Source: an uncultured Bacilli bacterium (GTDB taxonomy: Bacteria; Bacillota_I; Bacilli_A; RF39; UBA660). From it: a DNA stretch of 36,602 bases. The DNA lies in NCBI GenBank assembly GCA_944363935.1, contig CALVVT010000095.1:1-36602 (forward strand), read 5' to 3'. Positions 12,223 to 35,551 of the stretch are shown one piece after another. Below the pieces are notes generated by a model. It was not told the origin of the DNA. It saw only the letters and a program-made list of their open reading frames with translations, and did not search any database. Numbering within the stretch: the first letter of the stretch is position 1; the number at the start of each line of letters is the position of its first letter. Both the position numbers and the translations under genes were made by a program.

Positions 12223-13523
12223 GGCATTTTAAAATTTCCGTTTTTAAACTGTTTCATCATTGTTTTCATTTGTTCAAACTGTTTTAATAATCTATTTACT
12301 TCTTCAACACTTCGGCCACTACCAGCAGCGATTCTTCTTTTCCGACTAGCTTTTAAAATATCAGGATTTCTTCTTTCTTTTGGAGTCATTGATAGGATAA
12401 TTGCTTCGATATGAGCCATTTGTTTAGGATCAATATTTACATTATTAAGTCCCATTTTTTTAGCTCCAGGTAACATTTTTAAAATATTTTCCAGTGGCCC
12501 TAGTTTTTTTATTTGATTTAATTGAGTTAAAAAATCTTCTAAATCGAATTTTCCTTTTTGCATTTTTTCGGCCGCTTTTAAAGCTTCTTTATCGTCCATC
12601 AAACCTTCAGCTTTTTCAATCATACCCATTAAATCGCCCATATCTAAAATTCTATTAGCCATTCTTTCTGGATAAAAAGCTTCTAATCCATCCATTTTTT
12701 CACTAACACCAATAAATTTAATAGGAATATTAGTTAAATGTCTAATTGATAAAGCCGCTCCACCTTTGGTATCACCATCAAGTTTAGTTAGCACGGCTCC
12801 CGTTAAAGGTAACTTTTCGTTAAAACCTGTAATTACATTAACAGCATCTTGACCAGTCATACTATCGACAACTAATAATATTTCATTAGGATTAACTATT
12901 TCATTTATTTTTTGAAGTTCTTCCATTAAAGGTTCGTCAATATGTAATCTTCCAGCAGTATCGATTAAAACATAATTATAGCCTTTTTCTTTAGCATAAT
13001 TAACAGCATTTTTCGCAATTTCAACTGGATTACCTTTACCTTCACTATAAACCTCAATATTAAGTTCTTTTCCTAATTGTTTTAACTGGTCGATAGCGGC
13101 TGGACGGTAAACATCACAAGCAACAAGCAATGGTTTTAAACCATATTTTTTTCTAACTAATCTAGCAAGTTTCCCCGCCGTAGTTGTTTTACCACTACCT
13201 TGAAGACCCGCCATCATTACAATAGTCATTGGTTTTACTACTATTAAAGGCTCATCTTCTTTACCTAGTAAATCAACTAGTTCATCTTTAACAATTTTAA
13301 CAAAAACTTCGCCCGGTTTTAAACTTTTAGCAACTTCTTCACCCAATGCTTTTTCTTTTACATTGTTAATAAATTCTTTAACTACTTTATAGTTAACATC
13401 AGCTTCTAATAAAGCAAGCCTTATTTCTCTTGTAACTTCACCAATATTATCTTCAGTTATTTTTCCATAACCTTTTATTTTATTTAAAGCACTTTGTAGT
13501 CTATCCCCTAAATTTTCAAACAT
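12216..13523 (-). CDS. ffh: Signal recognition particle GTPase Ffh
   Basis: 435 residues. The N domain is followed by the G domain with GLQGSGKTTTAGKLA (about 106-120), DTAGR and TKLDGDTKGGAAL, then the methionine-rich M domain (about 325-435) with SRKRRIAAGSGRSVEEVNRL, which binds SRP RNA. Ffh targets nascent membrane proteins to FtsY and the translocon. ATG 13521-13523 is chosen for GAGGTG 7 bases upstream; the longer frame starts ten codons earlier inside the promoter region. A TATAAT box at 13555-13560 is likely its -10. Confidence 0.96.
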   Translation of the reverse strand: MFENLGDRLQSALNKIKGYGKITEDNIGEVTREIRLALLEADVNYKVVKEFINNVKEKALGEEVAKSLKPGEVFVKIVKDELVDLLGKEDEPLIVVKPMTIVMMAGLQGSGKTTTAGKLARLVRKKYGLKPLLVACDVYRPAAIDQLKQLGKELNIEVYSEGKGNPVEIAKNAVNYAKEKGYNYVLIDTAGRLHIDEPLMEELQKINEIVNPNEILLVVDSMTGQDAVNVITGFNEKLPLTGAVLTKLDGDTKGGAALSIRHLTNIPIKFIGVSEKMDGLEAFYPERMANRILDMGDLMGMIEKAEGLMDDKEALKAAEKMQKGKFDLEDFLTQLNQIKKLGPLENILKMLPGAKKMGLNNVNIDPKQMAHIEAIILSMTPKERRNPDILKASRKRRIAAGSGRSVEEVNRLLKQFEQMKTMMKQFKNGNFKMPF

Positions 13524-21206: not shown

Positions 21207-21236
21207 AACTACTGAAATTTAATCAGTAGTTTTTGT
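21206..21236. terminator. Bidirectional terminator between pyrG and phosphohexomutase
   Basis: 10-bp stem (21206-21215 with 21223-21232), 7-base loop with the stop codon of the convergent gene (21219-21221). TTTTTG follows on the plus strand and TTTTAATTAA on the minus strand. The pyrG stop ends at the first base of the stem. Confidence 0.85.
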
Positions 21237-22598
21237 TATCTCATTTATTTTATCCATAAATTCTTTTTCGAGTTTTTTCAATTCTTTTTCAGTACTAGCT
21301 TCAAACCTAACCGTTAAATTATGTCCTGTATTACTAGCTCTAATTAAAGCCCAGGCATTAGGAAATTCCACTCTAATACCATCGATATTTTCATAGTTAT
21401 AACCTTTTTGGGTTACATAATCTTTTAACTTTTCAACTATTTGAAATTTATTATCTTCTCTAACTTTGACCTTTATTTCACCAGTCGAATAGTATTTTGA
21501 AATACCTTCTATTAATTCACTTATTTTTTTATCGGTTTTTGATAGTATTTCAATTATTCTTAAAGCCGCATATATGCCATCGTCAAAACCTTGATAACGG
21601 TCTCTAAAGAATAAATGACCAGAATATTCACCACCAAAATCAAAATTACCATCCTGCATTTTTTTATTACAGTAACTATTACCTGTTCTATTCATAACCG
21701 GTTCAAGGCCTAATTTTTTTACTTCGTCAATTAAGGTTCTTGAACATTTAACATCAAACAAAGCTTTTTTAGTTTTCATCGTCCTTACTAAATTTCGATA
21801 TATAAGTAACATAATTATATCGGCACTAATAAATTTACCATTTTCTAAAACTACGCCAACTCTATCAGCATCGCCATCGATTCCAATGCCAAGATCAAAC
21901 TTAAGTTCCCCTACTTTTTTACCTAAATCTTCCATATATTCACTTACCGAAGGATCAGGAATATGATTTGGGAAATCAGGATCACTATCACAATAGATAT
22001 ACTCGGCTGTAACATTAAATTCTTTAAAAATATCTTTTATAAAAGTACTAGCAGTCCCATTACCACAATCAATAACTACTTTTACTTTTTTTGGTCCTAA
22101 AGAAATATGTTCTTTTAAATTTTTAATATAAGCCTCTTTAATATCCGCTTTTATTTCTTTTCCTTCACCAGTATCAAACTCTAAATTATTCGTAAACAAT
22201 TTAAAACTTTCAATATATTCACCATAAGCATTGCCAAAATCGTCAAAAGCAAGCTTAAATCCATTATATTCTTTAGGATTATGACTAGCAGTTATCATTA
22301 TTCCAGGATTTATATTATAGTATTTTCTCGCAAAATAATACATTGGTGTAGTAACAAGGCCAAGGTCAATAACATTCATTCCACTATCGGTTATTCCTTT
22401 AATTAATGCCTCTGCAAGAACTGGTGAAGAAGTTCTATTATCATGACCAACTAATACTTTAACTTCTTCTCTTCCTTTAATATAAGTACCAAAGCTTCTG
22501 CCAATTGTATAAGCTACATCTTCGTCTAAATCCTCACCATAAATACCACGAATATCATACTCTCTAAAAATATGTTCTTTTACTTTTTTTAATTTCAT
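21219..22598 (-). CDS. manB: Phosphomannomutase/phosphoglucomutase family enzyme
   Basis: 459 residues. FREYDIRGIYGEDL at the start, the phosphoserine loop TASHNPKEYNGFKL, the metal loop GIGIDGDADRVGVV, the sugar loop GGEYSGHLFFRD and a late RASNTGHNLTVRFEA are the four hallmarks of alpha-D-phosphohexomutases. It interconverts sugar 1- and 6-phosphates for cell-wall or glycan precursors. Mannose or glucose specificity cannot be set from the sequence. It is a single gene convergent to pyrG. Confidence 0.92.
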   Translation of the reverse strand: MKLKKVKEHIFREYDIRGIYGEDLDEDVAYTIGRSFGTYIKGREEVKVLVGHDNRTSSPVLAEALIKGITDSGMNVIDLGLVTTPMYYFARKYYNINPGIMITASHNPKEYNGFKLAFDDFGNAYGEYIESFKLFTNNLEFDTGEGKEIKADIKEAYIKNLKEHISLGPKKVKVVIDCGNGTASTFIKDIFKEFNVTAEYIYCDSDPDFPNHIPDPSVSEYMEDLGKKVGELKFDLGIGIDGDADRVGVVLENGKFISADIIMLLIYRNLVRTMKTKKALFDVKCSRTLIDEVKKLGLEPVMNRTGNSYCNKKMQDGNFDFGGEYSGHLFFRDRYQGFDDGIYAALRIIEILSKTDKKISELIEGISKYYSTGEIKVKVREDNKFQIVEKLKDYVTQKGYNYENIDGIRVEFPNAWALIRASNTGHNLTVRFEASTEKELKKLEKEFMDKINEITKTTD

Positions 22599-23265: not shown

Positions 23266-23294
23266 TTGTCACAAAATAGGCATTTTTACATATT
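23266..23294 (+). promoter_or_regulatory. Possible promoter of interrupted amidase gene
   Basis: TTGTCA (23266-23271), 17-base spacer, CATATT (23289-23294), 19 bases before the ATG. The -10 is weak. Confidence 0.4.
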
Positions 23295-23313
23295 TTAATG
23301 TAGAGGTGAGGAA

Positions 23314-23385
23314 ATGAATAATTTACAAGTTGTTATAGATGCAGGTCATGGTGGCCCCAGCGTATCCCGAATATTATTTTATTAA
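23314..23385 (+). pseudogene. N-acetylmuramoyl-L-alanine amidase (Amidase_3), 5' fragment split by the element
   Basis: Behind a GAGGTGAGG ribosome site, ATG 23314 opens MNNLQVVIDAGHGG, the first strand and zinc-binding GHGG motif of Amidase_3 (CwlD/AmiC-type) amidases. The frame then continues as PSVSRILFY and stops at 23383-23385, three bases into the convergent recombinase gene. The remaining roughly 170 or more residues are missing. The break coincides with the edge of the conjugative element, so the 3' part is expected beyond the right end of this window. Confidence 0.8.
23350..23372. other. Probable attachment-site junction of the element
   Basis: Homology to the amidase ends after GGTGGCCCC (about 23350-23358), and the recombinase gene ends at 23382. 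Large serine recombinases usually lie next to one attachment site. The exact crossover dinucleotide cannot be set without the other junction. Confidence 0.55.
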
Positions 23386-24980
23386 TTTAAAAAATTCCAT
23401 ACTATATTTATATTTCTTGTATTTGTTTCTTTATCATAAGAACCAATATAAATTTTATCAATAAATTCATCAACTATAACTTTATTTAGTTTCGTAATTT
23501 TATTATATTTTTTTAACACTTCAGATGTTTGCTTTTTATTATCTTCAGTTTGCTTATAATGTATAATTTCTTCATCTAATTTTTTTTCTCTATTTATCAT
23601 TGTATCAATTTCTTTTAAATAATCAGAAGATAACATTTTAAACATATCATCAGTTATTATTCCTTTTACTTTATCCTCATATAATTTTCTATAATAACTT
23701 TTATTTTCTTCTATTTTTTTATTAATATTATTTTTTTCATTTTCTAATATTTTTATTTGTTCAAGATTAATATTATTAATTTTTAGCTTTTTATATTGTT
23801 CTTGTAACAGCTCTTTATCATAATATTTCTTTAACAAATCATTGATAGCATCTAGTAATATTTTTTCCATATCTTGCAATTTTATTGATTTTTTATTTTG
23901 ACATGTATGTGTTTGTTTTGCTCCTTTACATTGTAAATATATTCTTCTTCCATTAGGAGAACTTTTAACTTTATATGTATTTCTTATAAAAGCTTTTTGG
24001 CATTCACTACAATATACTTTTCTACTCAAATAATGAATTTCTCCGCATCTTGTTGGACATTCATGAGAATTCAGTCTTTTTTGTACAGTATTCCACACTT
24101 CTTTGGTAATAATTGGCTCGTGAGCATTTTCAGTTCTACACCATAGTTGTTTAGGTACTTTTTTAGATTTATGAACTTTATAACTTAAGGAAGTCTTTTT
24201 TCCTTGTACTAAATTCCCAATATAAACTTCATTTTTTAATATAGTTGCGACGGTATCCTTTGTCCACACAACTTTATCATAATCACATGTTCCACAAACA
24301 AAATTACTACCACACTGCTTTTTATATTGAGCAGGAGTTGGAATGTTTAAGTTATTTAAATGTTCACAAATTTTATAATAGCCAAGACCACTTACATATA
24401 ATTCAAATATTTTTTTTACTACTTCAGCCGCTACTGGATCAATTACCAATTTATGTTTATCATTTTCACTTCTTTGATAACCATAAGGAGCAAAACTTCC
24501 CATAAACAAACCATCATCACGTTTGTTTTTCAAAGATTTTTTTATATTTTGCGATAAATCTTCTAAATACCATTCATTTATAAGCCCATTAATCTGTCTT
24601 GATTTTTTATTGGCTTCATTATTTGTATCAGCATTATCAATAATACTAACAAATCTTACGCCCCACTCTATAAACTTATTATGTAAATATCTTTCTATAA
24701 CTTCCATATCTCTTGAAAATCTTGATTGACTTTTACATAATACCAAGTTAATTCTACCTTTTTCACAATCTTTCATAAGACGTTCAAACTCTGGCCTATA
24801 AGTACCGGCTCCTGAAAAATCATCATCAGAATATATATCTACTACATTCCAACCATTTTGAGCAGCATACTTTACACACATACTTTTTTGATTTACTATA
24901 CTATTACTATCATCATTTTTATTTGCTTTAAATCTATCCTCATCAGATAGTCTTGTATATACACCCACCTTCGTTATCAT
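23382..24980 (-). CDS. Large serine recombinase (integrase/excisionase)
   Basis: 532 residues. The resolvase domain begins VGVYTRLSDEDR with the catalytic Ser in YxRxS, and continues with YSDDDFSGAGTYRPEFERL and SQSRFSRDMEVIERY. The Recombinase domain (about 160-300; GSFAPYGYQ) is followed by a zinc ribbon starting CSECQKAF and a long coiled-coil (about 395-480). This is the architecture of Tn5397/TndX-type integrases. It lies at the element's end and converges on the split amidase. ATG 24978-24980 is preferred: GGAGG is 7 bases before it but only 1 base before the upstream ATG. Confidence 0.93.
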   Translation of the reverse strand: MITKVGVYTRLSDEDRFKANKNDDSNSIVNQKSMCVKYAAQNGWNVVDIYSDDDFSGAGTYRPEFERLMKDCEKGRINLVLCKSQSRFSRDMEVIERYLHNKFIEWGVRFVSIIDNADTNNEANKKSRQINGLINEWYLEDLSQNIKKSLKNKRDDGLFMGSFAPYGYQRSENDKHKLVIDPVAAEVVKKIFELYVSGLGYYKICEHLNNLNIPTPAQYKKQCGSNFVCGTCDYDKVVWTKDTVATILKNEVYIGNLVQGKKTSLSYKVHKSKKVPKQLWCRTENAHEPIITKEVWNTVQKRLNSHECPTRCGEIHYLSRKVYCSECQKAFIRNTYKVKSSPNGRRIYLQCKGAKQTHTCQNKKSIKLQDMEKILLDAINDLLKKYYDKELLQEQYKKLKINNINLEQIKILENEKNNINKKIEENKSYYRKLYEDKVKGIITDDMFKMLSSDYLKEIDTMINREKKLDEEIIHYKQTEDNKKQTSEVLKKYNKITKLNKVIVDEFIDKIYIGSYDKETNTRNINIVWNFLN

Positions 24981-25046
24981 AGCCATTCCTCCAATCGTAA
25001 TGAATGACTATAGAATTTATTAAATACAAATTTATTATACATTAAT

Positions 25047-25193
25047 TCACTCTTTTTTTAAACCTATGATAGCAGTATTTTCTAAAGTTAATATAATATT
25101 TAACAACTTTTTGTTAAATATATCTTTAACCTTTTCTACTGACTCATTTTCATTATTTTTAATAACACTTTCTATATTATATTTAATTTCCAT
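25047..25193 (-). CDS. Small protein upstream of the recombinase
   Basis: 48 residues, starting MEIKYNIESVIKNNENESVE and ending NTAIIGLKKE, highly charged and probably helical. The ribosome site AAAGGGGG is excellent. It lies 66 bases before the recombinase, with a strong inverted repeat upstream. Small ORFs in this position often affect recombination direction or expression, but I recognise no family. Confidence 0.55.
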   Translation of the reverse strand: MEIKYNIESVIKNNENESVEKVKDIFNKKLLNIILTLENTAIIGLKKE

Positions 25194-25344: not shown

Positions 25345-27321
25345 TTACATGCCAAATCCTTTTGTATGAATTTCTACTATTTTGTTATCATCATTTATTT
25401 GTAAATGAAATTTATTGTCAGAAATTATTTTTTTTAAGAAAAAAACATCACTGTTTTTTAGTAATGTTTTAAACTTTATTATCATATATGTTTTATTATT
25501 ACATTCATCATATTCAACTTTTTCTATATTATTATCAAATTTATTTATAATTAATCTTTTTATATCATTAAATATATTTTGTTCTTGTGATTGTTTTTGT
25601 TTAATTAAATCTTTTTGACCTCTATTCAATCTATTTTTATTAAAATTTAACAAAGTATTTTTTGACGTAAAATCAATATCTTCAACTGTAAAATAGTTAT
25701 AACTTAAATCTAATAAACTTTTTTCCTCTCTATCTATTTTACCTTCTTTATAACATTTGAATTTTTTATATAATATTGTATCTCTTATTATTGGATAACC
25801 TACTGTTGGAAATATAATCATTTTATAATGAAGCTGTTTAACTTCATCTGGCGTAAGTAAATCACGTGCCATCAACGAAGTTGAATTATTCCCACTATAA
25901 TTCATAATACTAAGTGATTGAGATATAGAAGAAGATTCAATTGTTTTTTTACCTAATCTTTTACTTATTGCCTCTGCTGTATCTTGAGTATTTGTTTTTA
26001 AATAGACAAGCCCACAGTTATCTAAAATTATTTGAGCAACTTCTTTTCCATAAACATTATCAAGTTGACTAAAAGATTGTATAAAAAAATGAAATCTCAT
26101 TCCTCTACTTCTAGCAACTGAAACCAATGCCTCTATATCGGCAAGTGGCGGACAATTAGCAAATTCATCTAAAATAAAATCTATTTGAACAGGTAATTTT
26201 TTATCTTCGTGTTTATTAGCTAATTTTACCAACTCTTTGTACAAAAGACCAACAATAATTGAAACTAAGGTATAATATGTTTTATCCTCATCCGGAACTA
26301 TTATATAAAATGCAACCGGTTCCTTACCTAATATATCAAATTCAAAATCACTACTACTAGTAACATTAGCCACGTTTATATCACCAAATATAGACATTTT
26401 CTCGCCAAAAACAGCGGTTATACTTTTATATGTATTTTCACTTGCTGAAAGAATTGAAATTAAACTATCCTTTGATTTTAATCCATATTCTTTTGATTCA
26501 ATATAGCCTTTAAATTTATCAAAATTTTTATCAGCCATTGATGAGTTTTGAAATTGTTTAATGTTTGACATTGTTATTTGCTCACGTTTTATTTTTTTAT
26601 CTTTATATTCTTCCAAAAACAAACCAATTAATCCTTCTAGTAGTTGCCTTGCTGAATTATTCCAAAAAGGATCTTTTGGTGTTTCTTTTTCTTTCATTAC
26701 CATTTCAGATAAAGAAACTATTAATCTATTTGTTTCTGCATAATGACTCATTGCCATATTTTTATAATGTTTTTTTAAATTGTTATCTATTTCATTTTTA
26801 TATTTTTCGACATTATTAAGGTAATTTTCATATTCTAAGATTATAGGTTCTAAAATATTAATTCTATTTGACTTTTCTGGATTCCTAAAATCTATTGTTA
26901 TCACTTTATAGCCTCTATCTTGAAACATCTCACTTGTACAAGAAAATATTTCTCCCTTAGGATCTGTTATGAAAACACTTCTTTTATTTATCGACGAAGA
27001 TATGAATGCACACAAAGGAATTACTTGAGTAACAGATTTTCCAGAACCCGTTGAACCTAAATAAACCCAATGTGGTGTTTCATTATCAAACCAACCATGA
27101 TTTAATTTTTTATCAAAATATATTGGAAATCCAACTTTGCGAATGTTAGAAATTTTTTCTTTAGTAAAATATTTATTTATTTCTGATTTAGTTGCAAATC
27201 TTGCACTACCATATTCGTTGCTATTTTTTATTTTATGTTTAAATATAATTGGTTCTATATACATAAAAACAATAATAAATAAAATAATTAAAAGCAATAA
27301 AACAAAAAGCGATAAACTCAT
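25345..27321 (-). CDS. VirD4/TraG-type type IV coupling protein
   Basis: 658 residues. One N-terminal membrane helix (about 4-24), Walker A GSTGSGKS at 89-96, and Walker B in DFILDEFANCPPL (about 378-390), followed by ARSRGMRFHFFIQSFSQL. This is the VirD4 family, hexameric ATPases that bring the relaxase-DNA complex to the secretion channel. The length matches Gram-positive members. The C-terminal 130 residues are Lys/Asn-rich and not conserved. It is transcribed toward the recombinase module. Confidence 0.93.
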   Translation of the reverse strand: MSLSLFVLLLLIILFIIVFMYIEPIIFKHKIKNSNEYGSARFATKSEINKYFTKEKISNIRKVGFPIYFDKKLNHGWFDNETPHWVYLGSTGSGKSVTQVIPLCAFISSSINKRSVFITDPKGEIFSCTSEMFQDRGYKVITIDFRNPEKSNRINILEPIILEYENYLNNVEKYKNEIDNNLKKHYKNMAMSHYAETNRLIVSLSEMVMKEKETPKDPFWNNSARQLLEGLIGLFLEEYKDKKIKREQITMSNIKQFQNSSMADKNFDKFKGYIESKEYGLKSKDSLISILSASENTYKSITAVFGEKMSIFGDINVANVTSSSDFEFDILGKEPVAFYIIVPDEDKTYYTLVSIIVGLLYKELVKLANKHEDKKLPVQIDFILDEFANCPPLADIEALVSVARSRGMRFHFFIQSFSQLDNVYGKEVAQIILDNCGLVYLKTNTQDTAEAISKRLGKKTIESSSISQSLSIMNYSGNNSTSLMARDLLTPDEVKQLHYKMIIFPTVGYPIIRDTILYKKFKCYKEGKIDREEKSLLDLSYNYFTVEDIDFTSKNTLLNFNKNRLNRGQKDLIKQKQSQEQNIFNDIKRLIINKFDNNIEKVEYDECNNKTYMIIKFKTLLKNSDVFFLKKIISDNKFHLQINDDNKIVEIHTKGFGM

Positions 27322-28308: not shown

Positions 28309-29598
28309 TTACTTATTTTTCTCATCATAATTAAATAATTTACTAAATTCTTGTGACGCTTCTTCCATTTCATAATTTATATTCTTTATTGCTTTTTGTA
28401 TATTATAAATATTTTTATAATTCTTATTATTTGAAGATAACGCTGTTCTAATAATATCCTTTTTTGAAAATTTTTTATTTTGTTTGTAATTATTTAAAAT
28501 TATTTCTTTAAAAACATCATCTCCTTTTATTTTTAGCTGTTTTACTTGCCCACTATAATATTTTTGAGTAGTATTAACAATCGCGTTTAAAATATAGTTG
28601 TCTAAATATTTTTTCTTCATTTCAGTATATGAAAAATCTAAATTCGAACTTTTTATTTTATTATTTTTACCTAGATCTATAATATAGCTATTAAGTATTT
28701 TTATACTTTCATTAAAATTCTTTTTAGAAATTTTTAAATTGAAATCAATTTTAAACAAATCATTTTTGATTTCTTTTGTTAATTTTTTTATTTCATCTTC
28801 ATTAATAGAATTATATTTTATTTTAGCTCTCATTCCATATTCGTTTTCGTATAACATTTTGCCTAAAGTTAAAATTTTTTCTTCCAAAATGATATTGTTT
28901 TTATTTTTCAAAATAAAATTATAAGAATTTGAATCAAAATATTTTTTAAACTCTTCAATATCTTTATTAATGTTTATAGACATTGGTTTGAATTTTGAAT
29001 TTCTCTCAATAGAAAGACAAGTTTCTTGTTTTAGAAAATTAATAACATTTTGCGAGATTTTGGCCTGCCTTCTATACTTTAACTTTCCGTCTTTTGCTCT
29101 AGTGTTTGGACAACGTTCCATAAATGCAATATGAAAGTGAGGGTGTTTAGTATTAGTATGTAATGAAAAAACATAAAACATTTTTTTTACATCTTCAAAC
29201 CCCATTTTTTTAAACACTTTAGGAAGAATCTCTTTTGCTAATTTTGTTTCTAACTCATCATAAGAAATATTACTATCTATATACTTTTTATCAAACGATA
29301 AAACAATTTGCCATAAATTAGAATTATTGAATTGTTTGCTTATATATTTTTTGATTCTTGTTTTTTCTTCTGAAGTTGCTTTTTTACCATTTTCCATTAC
29401 TAAATTTATATCATCATGTTTATTAATTTTCCCAGTAAAATAGTCGACTAAATTTAATGCTCGTTTTTTATCATCAGAAAAATAATCAATTATATGTTCG
29501 TTATATTTTTTATCTTTATCAATATTTTTCTTTATTCTATCAGGATTATTTATTGCAAGTTTATAATTAGTTCTAACAATAACTTTTGGCTTATTCAT
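28309..29598 (-). CDS. MOBP-like relaxase
   Basis: 429 residues. The triple-His metal site is in TKHPHFHIAFMER (about 148-160), preceded by WQIVLSFDKKYI, in the order typical of MobA/MobL (MOBP) relaxases. The catalytic Tyr is not obvious; candidates are Tyr residues in the first 45 residues. The C-terminal half is Lys/Asn-rich and helical. The enzyme would nick oriT and pilot the strand into the recipient. Its start overlaps the upstream gene by 8 bases. GGTAAATATTTTA precedes the ATG, a long spacing. Confidence 0.82.
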   Translation of the reverse strand: MNKPKVIVRTNYKLAINNPDRIKKNIDKDKKYNEHIIDYFSDDKKRALNLVDYFTGKINKHDDINLVMENGKKATSEEKTRIKKYISKQFNNSNLWQIVLSFDKKYIDSNISYDELETKLAKEILPKVFKKMGFEDVKKMFYVFSLHTNTKHPHFHIAFMERCPNTRAKDGKLKYRRQAKISQNVINFLKQETCLSIERNSKFKPMSININKDIEEFKKYFDSNSYNFILKNKNNIILEEKILTLGKMLYENEYGMRAKIKYNSINEDEIKKLTKEIKNDLFKIDFNLKISKKNFNESIKILNSYIIDLGKNNKIKSSNLDFSYTEMKKKYLDNYILNAIVNTTQKYYSGQVKQLKIKGDDVFKEIILNNYKQNKKFSKKDIIRTALSSNNKNYKNIYNIQKAIKNINYEMEEASQEFSKLFNYDEKNK

Positions 29599-31978: not shown

Positions 31979-32824
31979 TTATGTGTTAAAATTAATTAAA
32001 TTCATTCCATCTACTTTTTTCTTATCATTTGTCTGTACTTCAAAATGTAAATGAGGACCTGTAGAATAACCTGTAGTACCTACACTAGCAATTTGTTTTC
32101 CTTGACTAACATTCATACCTTTTTTTACTTTTGAAGAATTTGGATATAAATGCCCATAAATAACATAGTAAGTTGCACTCGGTACATCGCATCTTAGTTT
32201 TATATAATTACCATAACCCCCATTTTTATCAATCGAATTTGATAAGTATTTAAAACTAGAGACTTCTATAATACCATCACAAACAGCATATACCGGAGTA
32301 CCATTACTTGCTGCTAAATCCCACGCTCCATGAACATCAGATTTCCCATATACAATTCTTTCTTGCATAAAATAACTAGTTACTGTTACCTTACTAAAAT
32401 CAATAGGCTTTGAAAATGGTTTTGAACTTAAATTATTATCTTGCTCATTAATATTATTACAAAGTGATATATTATTGTATTTTTTCATATCACAAACTTC
32501 ATCTAATGGTTTCATTTGTTTATTTATTTTATCTAAATTATCACTATAAATTTCAGCAAATGAAAAAGAAGTGTTTTCATTGTAAAGCTTTACTATTCTA
32601 GATAAAGTTACATAACCATCATTATTTTTTATATTTTTAGAAACAACAGGTAAATATAAATTAGAATATTTTGAATTATTTTTTACGTATTCATCTTCTA
32701 TATCACTATTAGTCGTATCAGTATTAAAAAAATTTAAAACACTTAAACAGGCAGTTAAAATTACAAAAAATATACAAATACAAGCACCACCAATTCCAGC
32801 GCCTATAGCCACTACTTTATTCAA
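31979..32824 (-). CDS. Membrane-anchored M23 peptidoglycan hydrolase
   Basis: 281 residues. One N-terminal helix (about 7-30), a linker region, and a LytM/M23 domain from about 150. Zinc ligands are visible in VHGAWDLAA (HxxxD) and GPHLHFEV (HxH). It would cut peptide bridges locally so the secretion channel can cross the wall, a usual part of Gram-positive T4SS elements. The start is TTG (32822-32824) in a TTGA overlap with the upstream stop, with AAGGA before it; no nearby ATG fits. Confidence 0.88.
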   Translation of the reverse strand: MNKVVAIGAGIGGACICIFFVILTACLSVLNFFNTDTTNSDIEDEYVKNNSKYSNLYLPVVSKNIKNNDGYVTLSRIVKLYNENTSFSFAEIYSDNLDKINKQMKPLDEVCDMKKYNNISLCNNINEQDNNLSSKPFSKPIDFSKVTVTSYFMQERIVYGKSDVHGAWDLAASNGTPVYAVCDGIIEVSSFKYLSNSIDKNGGYGNYIKLRCDVPSATYYVIYGHLYPNSSKVKKGMNVSQGKQIASVGTTGYSTGPHLHFEVQTNDKKKVDGMNLINFNT

Positions 32825-33114
32825 ATTTCTACATCCTTATTTTTTGAAAACGAAAATTCATTTATCAATCTAGACATATTAAGCGAATGAAATAATTGAT
32901 TTAAATTATCATCATAGTTTAAATCTTTATTCACCACTAAATCATAAAGATCTTGTGCAACTTCTTCTAATAAATTTCTAGGATTACTTTTCAACATTCG
33001 CATTATATCTTGATACGCCTCATCTTTATCTTGATATATTTCACCAATAAAATTCTTTCTATATTGTCCAAAATAATCACATACATTATTTGCAAGTTCA
33101 GTTATTTTCATCAT
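32821..33114 (-). CDS. Small helical protein between virB4 and the M23 gene
   Basis: 97 residues, acidic and helical, beginning MMKITELANNVCDYFGQYR. No membrane segment or known motif. It overlaps virB4 by 17 bases and the M23 gene by 4, so it is translated with them and is probably a T4SS accessory protein (inference). GGGAG precedes the first ATG. Confidence 0.65.
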   Translation of the reverse strand: MMKITELANNVCDYFGQYRKNFIGEIYQDKDEAYQDIMRMLKSNPRNLLEEVAQDLYDLVVNKDLNYDDNLNQLFHSLNMSRLINEFSFSKNKDVEI

Positions 33115-35551
33115 ATACTTCTCCCATCATTTTTCTTTCTAAATTAGTTGCTTGAATTAAAATTCTAAGTCTTTTTTTAGTATCAATATTTAGTAAAAAT
33201 TCGCCTCTTTTAGCAAGTCCTAAAAAATGTTTTTGGGTATCAGTTAAAGGATTTTGTTTAAATAGTTCCAAATAAGCAAGTAAATCATCTTCTTTAAGCA
33301 TTCCTACCATTTGATACTGACAATTATTAAATATAGCAGTAGAATGTCTTAATATCTGATTAGAACCAACAAAGTCTTTGATTGATTGTGTGGCCACCAC
33401 TAAAGAACCATAATATTTTCTTAATCTACGAGCGAGTTGTCCAAAATTTCTTAACACTTCAAAATTGTTTTCGTCAATAAATAAATGAAATTCATCAGCA
33501 ACAATCATTATTCTTTTTCTATCTTCAAACTTCAATTTATCATTATTAATTTTATTAGCGACTATATTATTATTTAAATATGTTAATAGATTTAATGTTT
33601 GGGTATTAATTAATCTTCTATTTTCACTATACAAAAGTTCCTGAAGATTAAAGGCAATTAAATCATTATCTAAATTTATATTTGTATAACCATCAAACAA
33701 ATATGAATCAGTTCCAGTTAAAAATCTTGAAAGTAGTATATCTAATTGTTCAACGATTCTTCTTTTTTCTTTACTTTCCAACTCTTTTTTATATTCCGGT
33801 AAATAGTTATATAAATCCGTAAAAATTGGATAGTCTTCTGGTCTTAATGATTGTAAAGTGTTAATAGAAGTATTTTTATAAATACCTTTTTTATTATATA
33901 ATTTTTCTACTATTGCCAATAACATTATTAATTCTTTTTCCGTTATATCTTCAAAAGCAGATTTAAAAAAAGCCTCTAGAAAGCCTAAATGTTTTGCTAG
34001 TGGGCAATCTGTTTCTCTAACGTCTGAATCCGATTCATCTTCATCACCTGAAATATATCTAATTTGTAGTGGATTTATAATACCACCTTTTTTAGAATAC
34101 AGGTCAATATATTCTCCACCATTGGCTTTAACTAATTTTTTGTATTCATTTTCTGCGTCAAAAATAAAGATTTTAGTTCCTCTAGCAAATTCATTAACAA
34201 TTATTTTTTTCATTGTATAAGACTTACCACCACCAGTTGACGCTACTATCGCAATATTATGTGATGTTCTAGAATCATTAATAATAAATGGGTCAAAAAA
34301 AGTTGGCAAAGATGTATGAATATCAACACCTAACATATAACCACTTGAGTCATTGTAACAATTTTTAGTAAAAGGAAAACCTGCACTTAAAGTAAGCGTT
34401 GGTAAATAGATAGAATAATCATCTAAAGTTCTAGTAGTCAAGTCATAGCATTGCCATGTTTCCATTTGCCTTAATCTAGGTACATCTAATTTAATTTGAA
34501 AAGAATCAGCAATTCTTCTAAGCTCTCTTATCGTATTTTCCCTTGTTTTTTTATCTCCAATCACAATTAAAATTAAAGAAACTTCTTTTATTTTTTCATC
34601 ACCATTTTTTATTTCATTCATTAAAACCTGAAAATTTTCTTGTTGTCTATCTAACTCAGTTGCATCTGATAATTTTCTAGTAGTATTTCTATCACTTAAT
34701 AAAAATTGATATTGTGAATTAACCCATTTAATTAGTTCATCTTGTGAAATAGTATCTTTAATAGTAAGACAAGCCCTTACTTTTGGAACATTAAATATAT
34801 CTTCAAAAAACATCTCATCAACAAATGGTGGAATGTTTTTTATAGTTATCATTTGTAATTCTTTCTCATCAAATCTTAAATTACTAGTTTTCTCACTTAA
34901 ACTCATTGGACATATTAAATTAGGTAAATCACACCAAATCAATTGATCTAGAGAATTAGAAGTTAGATATAAGTTCGACAAAAATTTGTATATTTCTAAT
35001 TTATTATGAATAATTTGAATAATTAATTTAGGAGTAATGCTATTTAATATTTCTTCTACCTCATCTAAAATCTTTTCAAGTTCTTCTACATTTTTAGAAA
35101 TTATAACCCAATAATAAATACTAGATACTGTAAAGTCATTTTCTTCTAAATGTTCTATTAAGTTTCTATTTTCTAATAACAACATTTTTTTATGTTCCAC
35201 ATCTTTAAATTTTTCTAGTTGTTTGTCTAAAGATATTTTATTGTTATTAAGATTAATTTTATCATCTAATTTATAACACTTTAAATTAAGATTTTTTATT
35301 TGATACAAATCTTTTAAAATATAAAAAAAGTTGTTTTTTTCTTGTTTACTTGCAAGAGATAAATCAATCGCATTTACTTCAAGAAGTGATGCAACCTCAC
35401 CAGTCTTTAAAACAATAAGTCCATCTTCATCAACTTCTTTAACATTAGTAAATATTTGTGAATTTTTTATTCTTTTTTTCATTCTTCCTTTTGTATTATA
35501 TTTGTTTTTATTGTATTTTTTTAAACTATCATTTAATTCTTCTTTTTTCAT
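33098..35551 (-). CDS. VirB4/TraC-type conjugation ATPase
   Basis: 817 residues. Walker A ASTGGGKSYT is at about 435-444 and Walker B in RIMIVADEFHLFIDE at about 679-692, followed by RKYYGSLVVATQSIKDF. The N-terminal half is the VirB4 regulatory domain. VirB4 powers assembly and function of the secretion channel. The length fits Gram-positive VirB4 (about 800). GAGG lies 11 bases before the ATG. Confidence 0.93.
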   Translation of the reverse strand: MKKEELNDSLKKYNKNKYNTKGRMKKRIKNSQIFTNVKEVDEDGLIVLKTGEVASLLEVNAIDLSLASKQEKNNFFYILKDLYQIKNLNLKCYKLDDKINLNNNKISLDKQLEKFKDVEHKKMLLLENRNLIEHLEENDFTVSSIYYWVIISKNVEELEKILDEVEEILNSITPKLIIQIIHNKLEIYKFLSNLYLTSNSLDQLIWCDLPNLICPMSLSEKTSNLRFDEKELQMITIKNIPPFVDEMFFEDIFNVPKVRACLTIKDTISQDELIKWVNSQYQFLLSDRNTTRKLSDATELDRQQENFQVLMNEIKNGDEKIKEVSLILIVIGDKKTRENTIRELRRIADSFQIKLDVPRLRQMETWQCYDLTTRTLDDYSIYLPTLTLSAGFPFTKNCYNDSSGYMLGVDIHTSLPTFFDPFIINDSRTSHNIAIVASTGGGKSYTMKKIIVNEFARGTKIFIFDAENEYKKLVKANGGEYIDLYSKKGGIINPLQIRYISGDEDESDSDVRETDCPLAKHLGFLEAFFKSAFEDITEKELIMLLAIVEKLYNKKGIYKNTSINTLQSLRPEDYPIFTDLYNYLPEYKKELESKEKRRIVEQLDILLSRFLTGTDSYLFDGYTNINLDNDLIAFNLQELLYSENRRLINTQTLNLLTYLNNNIVANKINNDKLKFEDRKRIMIVADEFHLFIDENNFEVLRNFGQLARRLRKYYGSLVVATQSIKDFVGSNQILRHSTAIFNNCQYQMVGMLKEDDLLAYLELFKQNPLTDTQKHFLGLAKRGEFLLNIDTKKRLRILIQATNLERKMMGEVYDENN

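Follow-up and report, generated by a model that had tools for sequence, protein, structure and literature searches.

Split amidase gene and its second half

The window (the whole stretch analysed, 36,602 nt) is the entire contig C95 of a draft genome of an uncultured Bacilli bacterium (G000; 1.27 Mb in 95 contigs). The ATG of an Amidase_3 gene lies at 23,314, with a good ribosome-binding site ahead of it (AGAGGTGAGG, 23,302-23,311), and the gene opens with MNNLQVVIDAGHGG. Its first 11 codons (MNNLQVVIDAG; 23,314-23,346) are those of a LysM-type amidase; homology ends at the His codon of the zinc-binding GHGG motif, and the frame continues as PSVSRILFY and then meets a stop. Aligning the junctions with intact relatives places the attachment core CATGG, which includes this His codon and is common to the left and right junctions, at 23,347-23,351. 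The element-derived arm of attL that follows (TGGTGGCCCCAGCGTATCCC..., 23,349-23,381) is also found beside the corresponding gene half in a sister species (G020). A gene for a 534-aa serine recombinase (23,382-24,986, reverse strand) converges on the break and ends 34 bp from the CA at 23,347-23,348; this CA is probably the crossover dinucleotide, since in a third type of element the base after CA tracks the host's wobble position. A phosphomannomutase gene (21,219-22,598, reverse strand) is, by synteny, a neighbour that the LysM amidase has kept in relatives. The original prediction had reported an Amidase_3 gene split at GHGG, with ribosome site, start codon and MNNLQVVIDAGHGG intact and a recombinase gene converging on the break; all of this reads as described, and the split is confirmed by intact orthologues and by the 3′ half found elsewhere.

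The 3′ part of the gene, which the same prediction had expected in frame at a right junction beyond the window, is on contig C28 of the same genome, from base 12,858 onward (first bases CATGGAGG), where it directly abuts the end of an element (...TTTCTTCGGTACTAGGA). Window positions 23,314-23,346 joined to C28 from 12,858 give an ORF of 483 aa without a stop, whose product shares 78% identity, along its full length, with the intact G010 orthologue; excision would thus rebuild an amidase gene, as had been proposed. The suggested comparison with related genomes that lack the element yielded eight intact orthologues (in G010, G042, G009, G034, G021, G015, G006, and G005), which start with MNNL(Q/K/E)VV(I/V)DAGHGG(T/S)D and continue with Amidase_3 and LysM domains; in five of the eight loci retrieved, a phosphomannomutase gene lies nearby. 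The restored attB is predicted as GATGCAGGT-CATGGAGGCACTGATCC and the attP joint as GGTACTAGGA-CATGGTGGCCCC. As in skin-type elements, a host coding sequence is split with its halves in frame, and a site-specific recombinase is encoded beside the junction. We rejected the idea that the element supplies a new amidase N-terminus: the 3′ halves that were read have no start codon before the GHGG codons.

G020 has the same left and right junctions in the same gene. Its recombinase is 99% identical to that of G000 and its host gene half only about 79-80% identical, which argues that the element moved horizontally, and recently.

The window-type amidase combines an Amidase_3 domain with C-terminal LysM repeats, and no signal peptide was seen. 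CwlD, of which the original prediction was reminded, has a membrane-anchored N-terminus, and its model (TIGR02883) a curated score of 221.55 bits; the first 245 aa of an intact window-type orthologue score 85.4 bits against it, and the protein starts without a membrane segment. G000 does have a cwlD-like gene, on contig C80: this contig opens with the last part of a second recombinase (72% identity across 29 aa), after which comes the 3′ half of a cwlD-like gene, interrupted at this same His codon. That the window gene is itself cwlD, with its 3′ part in C80, could appeal to this shared codon and to the open frame that joining the C80 half to the window half also leaves. But intact cwlD genes of relatives encode an N-terminal membrane segment and KVIYLDPGHGG (KVIYLDPGHGGKDSG), not MNNLQVVIDAGHGG; the window half and the neighbouring phosphomannomutase gene match the LysM amidase locus; and C80 ends in a different recombinase and a different attachment arm. 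We regard this reading as extremely improbable and, on synteny and N-terminal sequence, already refuted; the same two observations and the different recombinase rule out C80 as the right junction. By these comparisons the window gene is a LysM amidase separate from cwlD, probably a mother-cell gene like cwlC and cwlH. The only two Amidase_3 genes of G000 are both split, by two sister elements that face opposite ways relative to their amidase genes, so no further amidase copy makes up for the loss. The cwlD gene is cut at the same codon in G006, G031, G005, G039, and G047 as well (two element types), and in G049, where the recombinase adjoins the 5′ half.

Conjugative element and its integrase clade

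The gene content from 23,349 to the end of the window (36,602) is that of the left part of an integrated conjugative element, within which the contig ends. All of its assigned genes are on the reverse strand. The large serine recombinase next to the junction contains Resolvase, Recombinase, Zn_ribbon_recom, and DUF4368 domains, and belongs to an amidase-targeting clade (see below); in order of coordinates it is followed by a 48-aa ORF (25,047-25,193), a VirD4-type coupling protein of the CD1115 family (25,345-27,321; NF045973, 295.7 bits, above the cut-off of 250), a MobP2/MobL-like relaxase (28,309-29,598), an M23 peptidase of the transfer region (31,979-32,824), and a VirB4-type conjugation ATPase (33,098-35,551; NF045975, 493.7 bits, below the cut-off of 590). 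Integrase, relaxase, VirD4, and VirB4 are all present, and the predicted gene set makes this an integrative conjugative element (ICE) in anatomy. The window contains about 13 kb of the element, and C28 at most 12.8 kb more; the middle is missing from the assembly, and it is possible that two elements lie in tandem between C95 and C28. A motif, TTTGTATTTAATAA..TCTA(T/C)AGTCATT, precedes the recombinase start codon (window about 24,987-25,035, reverse strand) and also adjoins the right attachment arm of the element (L040, 12,800-12,857).

We scanned the GTDB species genomes with four members of the recombinase clade and retained the best 80 of the 455 relatives obtained; the close relatives are the 66 loci (L203-L268) above a drop to about 50% identity. 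Among these best 80 of 455, 51 of the 66 close relatives have an amidase half directly beside the recombinase, interrupted at this very codon: in 50 of them, CA(T/C)GGNGG and an amidase 3′ half lie 24-58 bp past the recombinase stop, and the remaining one (L203, in G020) has the 5′ half instead. The halves are from about 40 LysM amidases and about 10 cwlD-like genes, and they come from other gut Bacilli genomes, representing dozens of uncultured species; more distant relatives (L269-L282) lie outside amidases. Judged from these loci, the clade is specialised for the GHGG amidase site, and a multi-targeting integrase that strikes amidases by chance was rejected, given such a share at one codon. 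Since, in addition, G020 shares both junctions, the sequences exclude chance as the cause of the split. Of the 49 genomes in which an amidase is interrupted, 44 contain Spo0A_C; among the other five are two bins, named Phocaeicola and Methanobrevibacter, to which the contig was probably assigned in error.

Further insertions in amidase, sporulation, and other genes

Many LysM amidase halves are cut again immediately after SNH(I/L)NAGG, the second conserved His motif, with several unrelated adjoining sequences, and two halves end in the LysM GDT motif (L207, L249). This third insertion site, inside a LysM motif (GDT/GDS), was also seen at G044:C17:593-6780 (L123), where an element of about 6 kb has a recombinase at its end. 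In G134, a LysM amidase in three pieces, with two elements at GHGG and NHINAGG, lies on one contig (C1, L308-L311): exon 1 at 35,408, element 1 of 14.0 kb, exon 2 at 49,480-49,709, element 2 of 12.8 kb, and exon 3 from 62,524. The same layout was found in G154 (C48, L312-L313; elements of 11.1 and 12.8 kb) and G137 (C51, L318-L319; 10.6 and 7.4 kb), and each element in these three genomes has its own serine recombinase. The two G134 elements are different carriers: the first has a Mob_Pre relaxase, the second an Eco57I-type restriction-modification gene. The joined amidase frames are open in G000, G134, G154, and G137; the G137 frame stops early within the LysM region, where the G154 contig also runs out.

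Other serine-recombinase elements interrupt spoIVA within this bacterial family, at about residue 121 and about residue 399. The halves of the G015 gene, split at about residue 121, are about 44 kb apart on one contig with a serine recombinase between them (L114/L115, G015:C9:17805-61828); G064, G024, and G045 likely have this split as well (L116, L120, L121, L118, L119), the halves in G024 and G045 being on separate contigs. In G031:C2 (L174) and G040:C39 (L182), the last 90 or so spoIVA codons (from about 399) adjoin another serine recombinase.

Serine recombinases also border other genes. In G042:C53 (L172) and G008:C3 (L177), they run convergently toward an Asn-rich gene, coming to within about 90 bp of its 3′ end; that gene may be CotJ-like and has a sigma-K-type promoter. 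Another group adjoins fragments of an ABC-transporter substrate-binding protein gene, which is not a sporulation gene (G000:C21, L006; G006:C33, L168; G058:C21, L075), and a third adjoins a surface-protein gene fragment starting DYVAYAAF (G000:C3:1-110, L129; G006:C74, L128). Five large serine recombinase genes lie in tandem at G001:C56:19700-27900 (L176).

Predicted mother-cell expression, possible excision, and explanations of the split

Upstream of the split amidase gene is a conserved motif, AC-N16-CATAnnnTA (23,271-23,297), which we take to be a sigma-K-type promoter. It is found 43-49 nt from the start codon in 19 of 22 upstream regions of orthologous LysM amidases, and neither strand of the window contains another match; the 1.38 Mb of scanned strand contain 42 other matches, a conservative background count that includes a few amidase copies the script failed to recognise. 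The published sigma-K consensus has two blocks with a gap of 14-16 nt; in the B. subtilis mother cell, cwlD and spoIVA are sigma-E genes, and cwlC and cwlH are mother-cell lysis genes (PMC517825). Because the promoter motif is conserved, the split amidase is probably expressed in the late mother cell only. The spore-former background assumed by the original prediction holds up: G000 carries Spo0A, SpoIVA, sigK-like, and sigE-like genes, all uninterrupted, and the order RF39, to which this lineage probably belongs, has been predicted to include spore-formers (PMC10868615); sporulation of this uncultured lineage is itself a prediction. The analogy to skin that was drawn at the outset is strengthened by the putative sigma-K-type promoter on the split gene.

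The excised products, for which a search had been suggested, did not turn up: in 119 genomes and viral contigs, the search for the circular form (attP) returned nothing but the attR of G020, and no excised circle or restored attB was found in the assemblies searched. The upstream regions of the recombinases look sigma-A-like. In 66 of them, neither sigma-K sites (2, versus 1.9 in shuffles) nor sigma-E sites (2, versus 5.8) were enriched, and a sporulation-type promoter on the recombinase was rejected on these counts. This matches skin of C. difficile, whose recombinase is constitutive (sigma-A promoter) and whose excision is timed by a directionality factor restricted to the mother cell (PMC5025042). 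A candidate for an accessory or directionality factor is the 48-aa ORF, which matches no family: in each of the 25 clade loci listed, a similar short ORF closely precedes the recombinase gene, and across the clade such relatives sit 57-72 bp upstream of it. We found no convincing sigma-E or sigma-K promoter before a plausible directionality factor in the assembled part of the element.

We propose, with a probability of roughly 0.7, that an ICE has been inserted by its own serine integrase in a LysM Amidase_3 gene, probably used by the late mother cell only, and that excision rebuilds this gene exactly; the element is best read as a skin-like, conjugative intervening element of a sporulation gene. 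Crossover by the large serine integrase would take place at the CA within the GHGG His codon. With the element in place, the host would make just a 23-residue amidase stub, a loss that vegetative cells would tolerate; the same integrase, together with a directionality factor, would excise the element and restore the amidase gene exactly. As for skin and comparable elements, the place where excision would count is the terminal mother cell, which would not pass on its altered chromosome. Mother-cell expression of the amidase and mobility of the element are both inferred here, and timing of excision to the mother cell is speculative.

A serious competitor, to which we give a little under even odds, is that this is an ordinary element whose integrase targets a conserved coding motif, with an incidental link to sporulation and an excision that serves only transfer, rare and untimed. 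It would explain why the clade targets two kinds of Amidase_3 genes at the same motif, why the recombinase promoter looks vegetative, and why same-genus serine-recombinase elements also occur in genes for an ABC transporter and a surface protein. It sits less easily with main targets that are predicted mother-cell genes, with host genomes that nearly all have spo0A, and with different recombinases that, in the same family, cut the same amidase at other sites and spoIVA too. We consider it unlikely that the insertion is a dead end, the amidase being permanently inactive in a lineage that is losing sporulation or mother-cell lysis by this enzyme: sporulation has been lost repeatedly in small genomes of this kind (PMC10868615), and the failure to see an excised form points the same way, but the amidase halves, promoter, ribosome site, and recombinase of G000 are intact, the joined ORFs of all four genomes are open, and G000 has kept its sporulation genes.

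Like skin in sigK of B. subtilis and C. difficile, the proposed element has a serine recombinase and lies in a gene, here a probable mother-cell sporulation gene, that excision would rebuild, and, as in C. difficile, the recombinase has a sigma-A-like promoter; unlike skin, it carries conjugation genes, its target is a predicted mother-cell lysis amidase (sigK is intact in G000), and its excision is predicted from sequence. Intervening elements are known in sigK, spsM, spoVFB, spoVR, gerE, and yabG (PMC4191935, PMC5595907, PMC10747680). Among them, gin in gerE (B. cereus), yin in yabG (C. botulinum), vfbin, vrin, and SPbeta in spsM interrupt genes of the sigma-K period or further genes of the mother cell and each encode a serine recombinase of their own, but they are single cases per gene and mostly phage-derived, whereas here a whole integrase clade serves one amidase motif and two elements per gene are possible. 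The heterocyst elements (in nifD, fdxN, and hupL) share development-linked excision from functional genes, and XisF is the closest NCBIfam model to the window recombinase (below its cut-off); development, hosts, and element content are different. DUF4368 also occurs in multi-targeting large serine recombinases (PMC10083194), but the clade here is not scattered, with about three quarters of the close relatives at the same amidase codon. A mother-cell lysis amidase of the CwlC/CwlH kind would be expected to be a signal-less Amidase_3 protein that has C-terminal wall-binding repeats and is expressed late in the mother cell; the window-type amidase shows an Amidase_3 domain, no signal peptide, a predicted sigma-K-type promoter, and repeats that are LysM rather than SPOR. 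In the literature searched, mostly open-access papers, we found no such element described for cwlD, for spoIVA, or for an amidase resembling cwlC; the targets, the conjugative carrier, the integrase clade devoted to one catalytic motif, and the double interruption would on this basis be new.

Previously, only a few sporulation genes, in Bacillus, Geobacillus, and Clostridium, were known to harbour intervening elements. An integrase clade that is spread over dozens of uncultured gut species and aims at one catalytic motif of probable mother-cell amidases, often with a second element in the same gene and others in cwlD and spoIVA, suggests that terminally used genes may be a general refuge for mobile DNA. 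A broader view, which we hold tentatively and at less than even odds, is that mother-cell genes in a large group of uncultured gut Bacilli are bacterial split genes: the lysis amidase would be kept in two to three pieces, with different mobile elements lying precisely in its catalytic motifs, and would be reassembled in the mother cell at each sporulation, each element needing a serine recombinase of its own. If true, conjugative elements would hide in genes that are used only by a cell without descendants.
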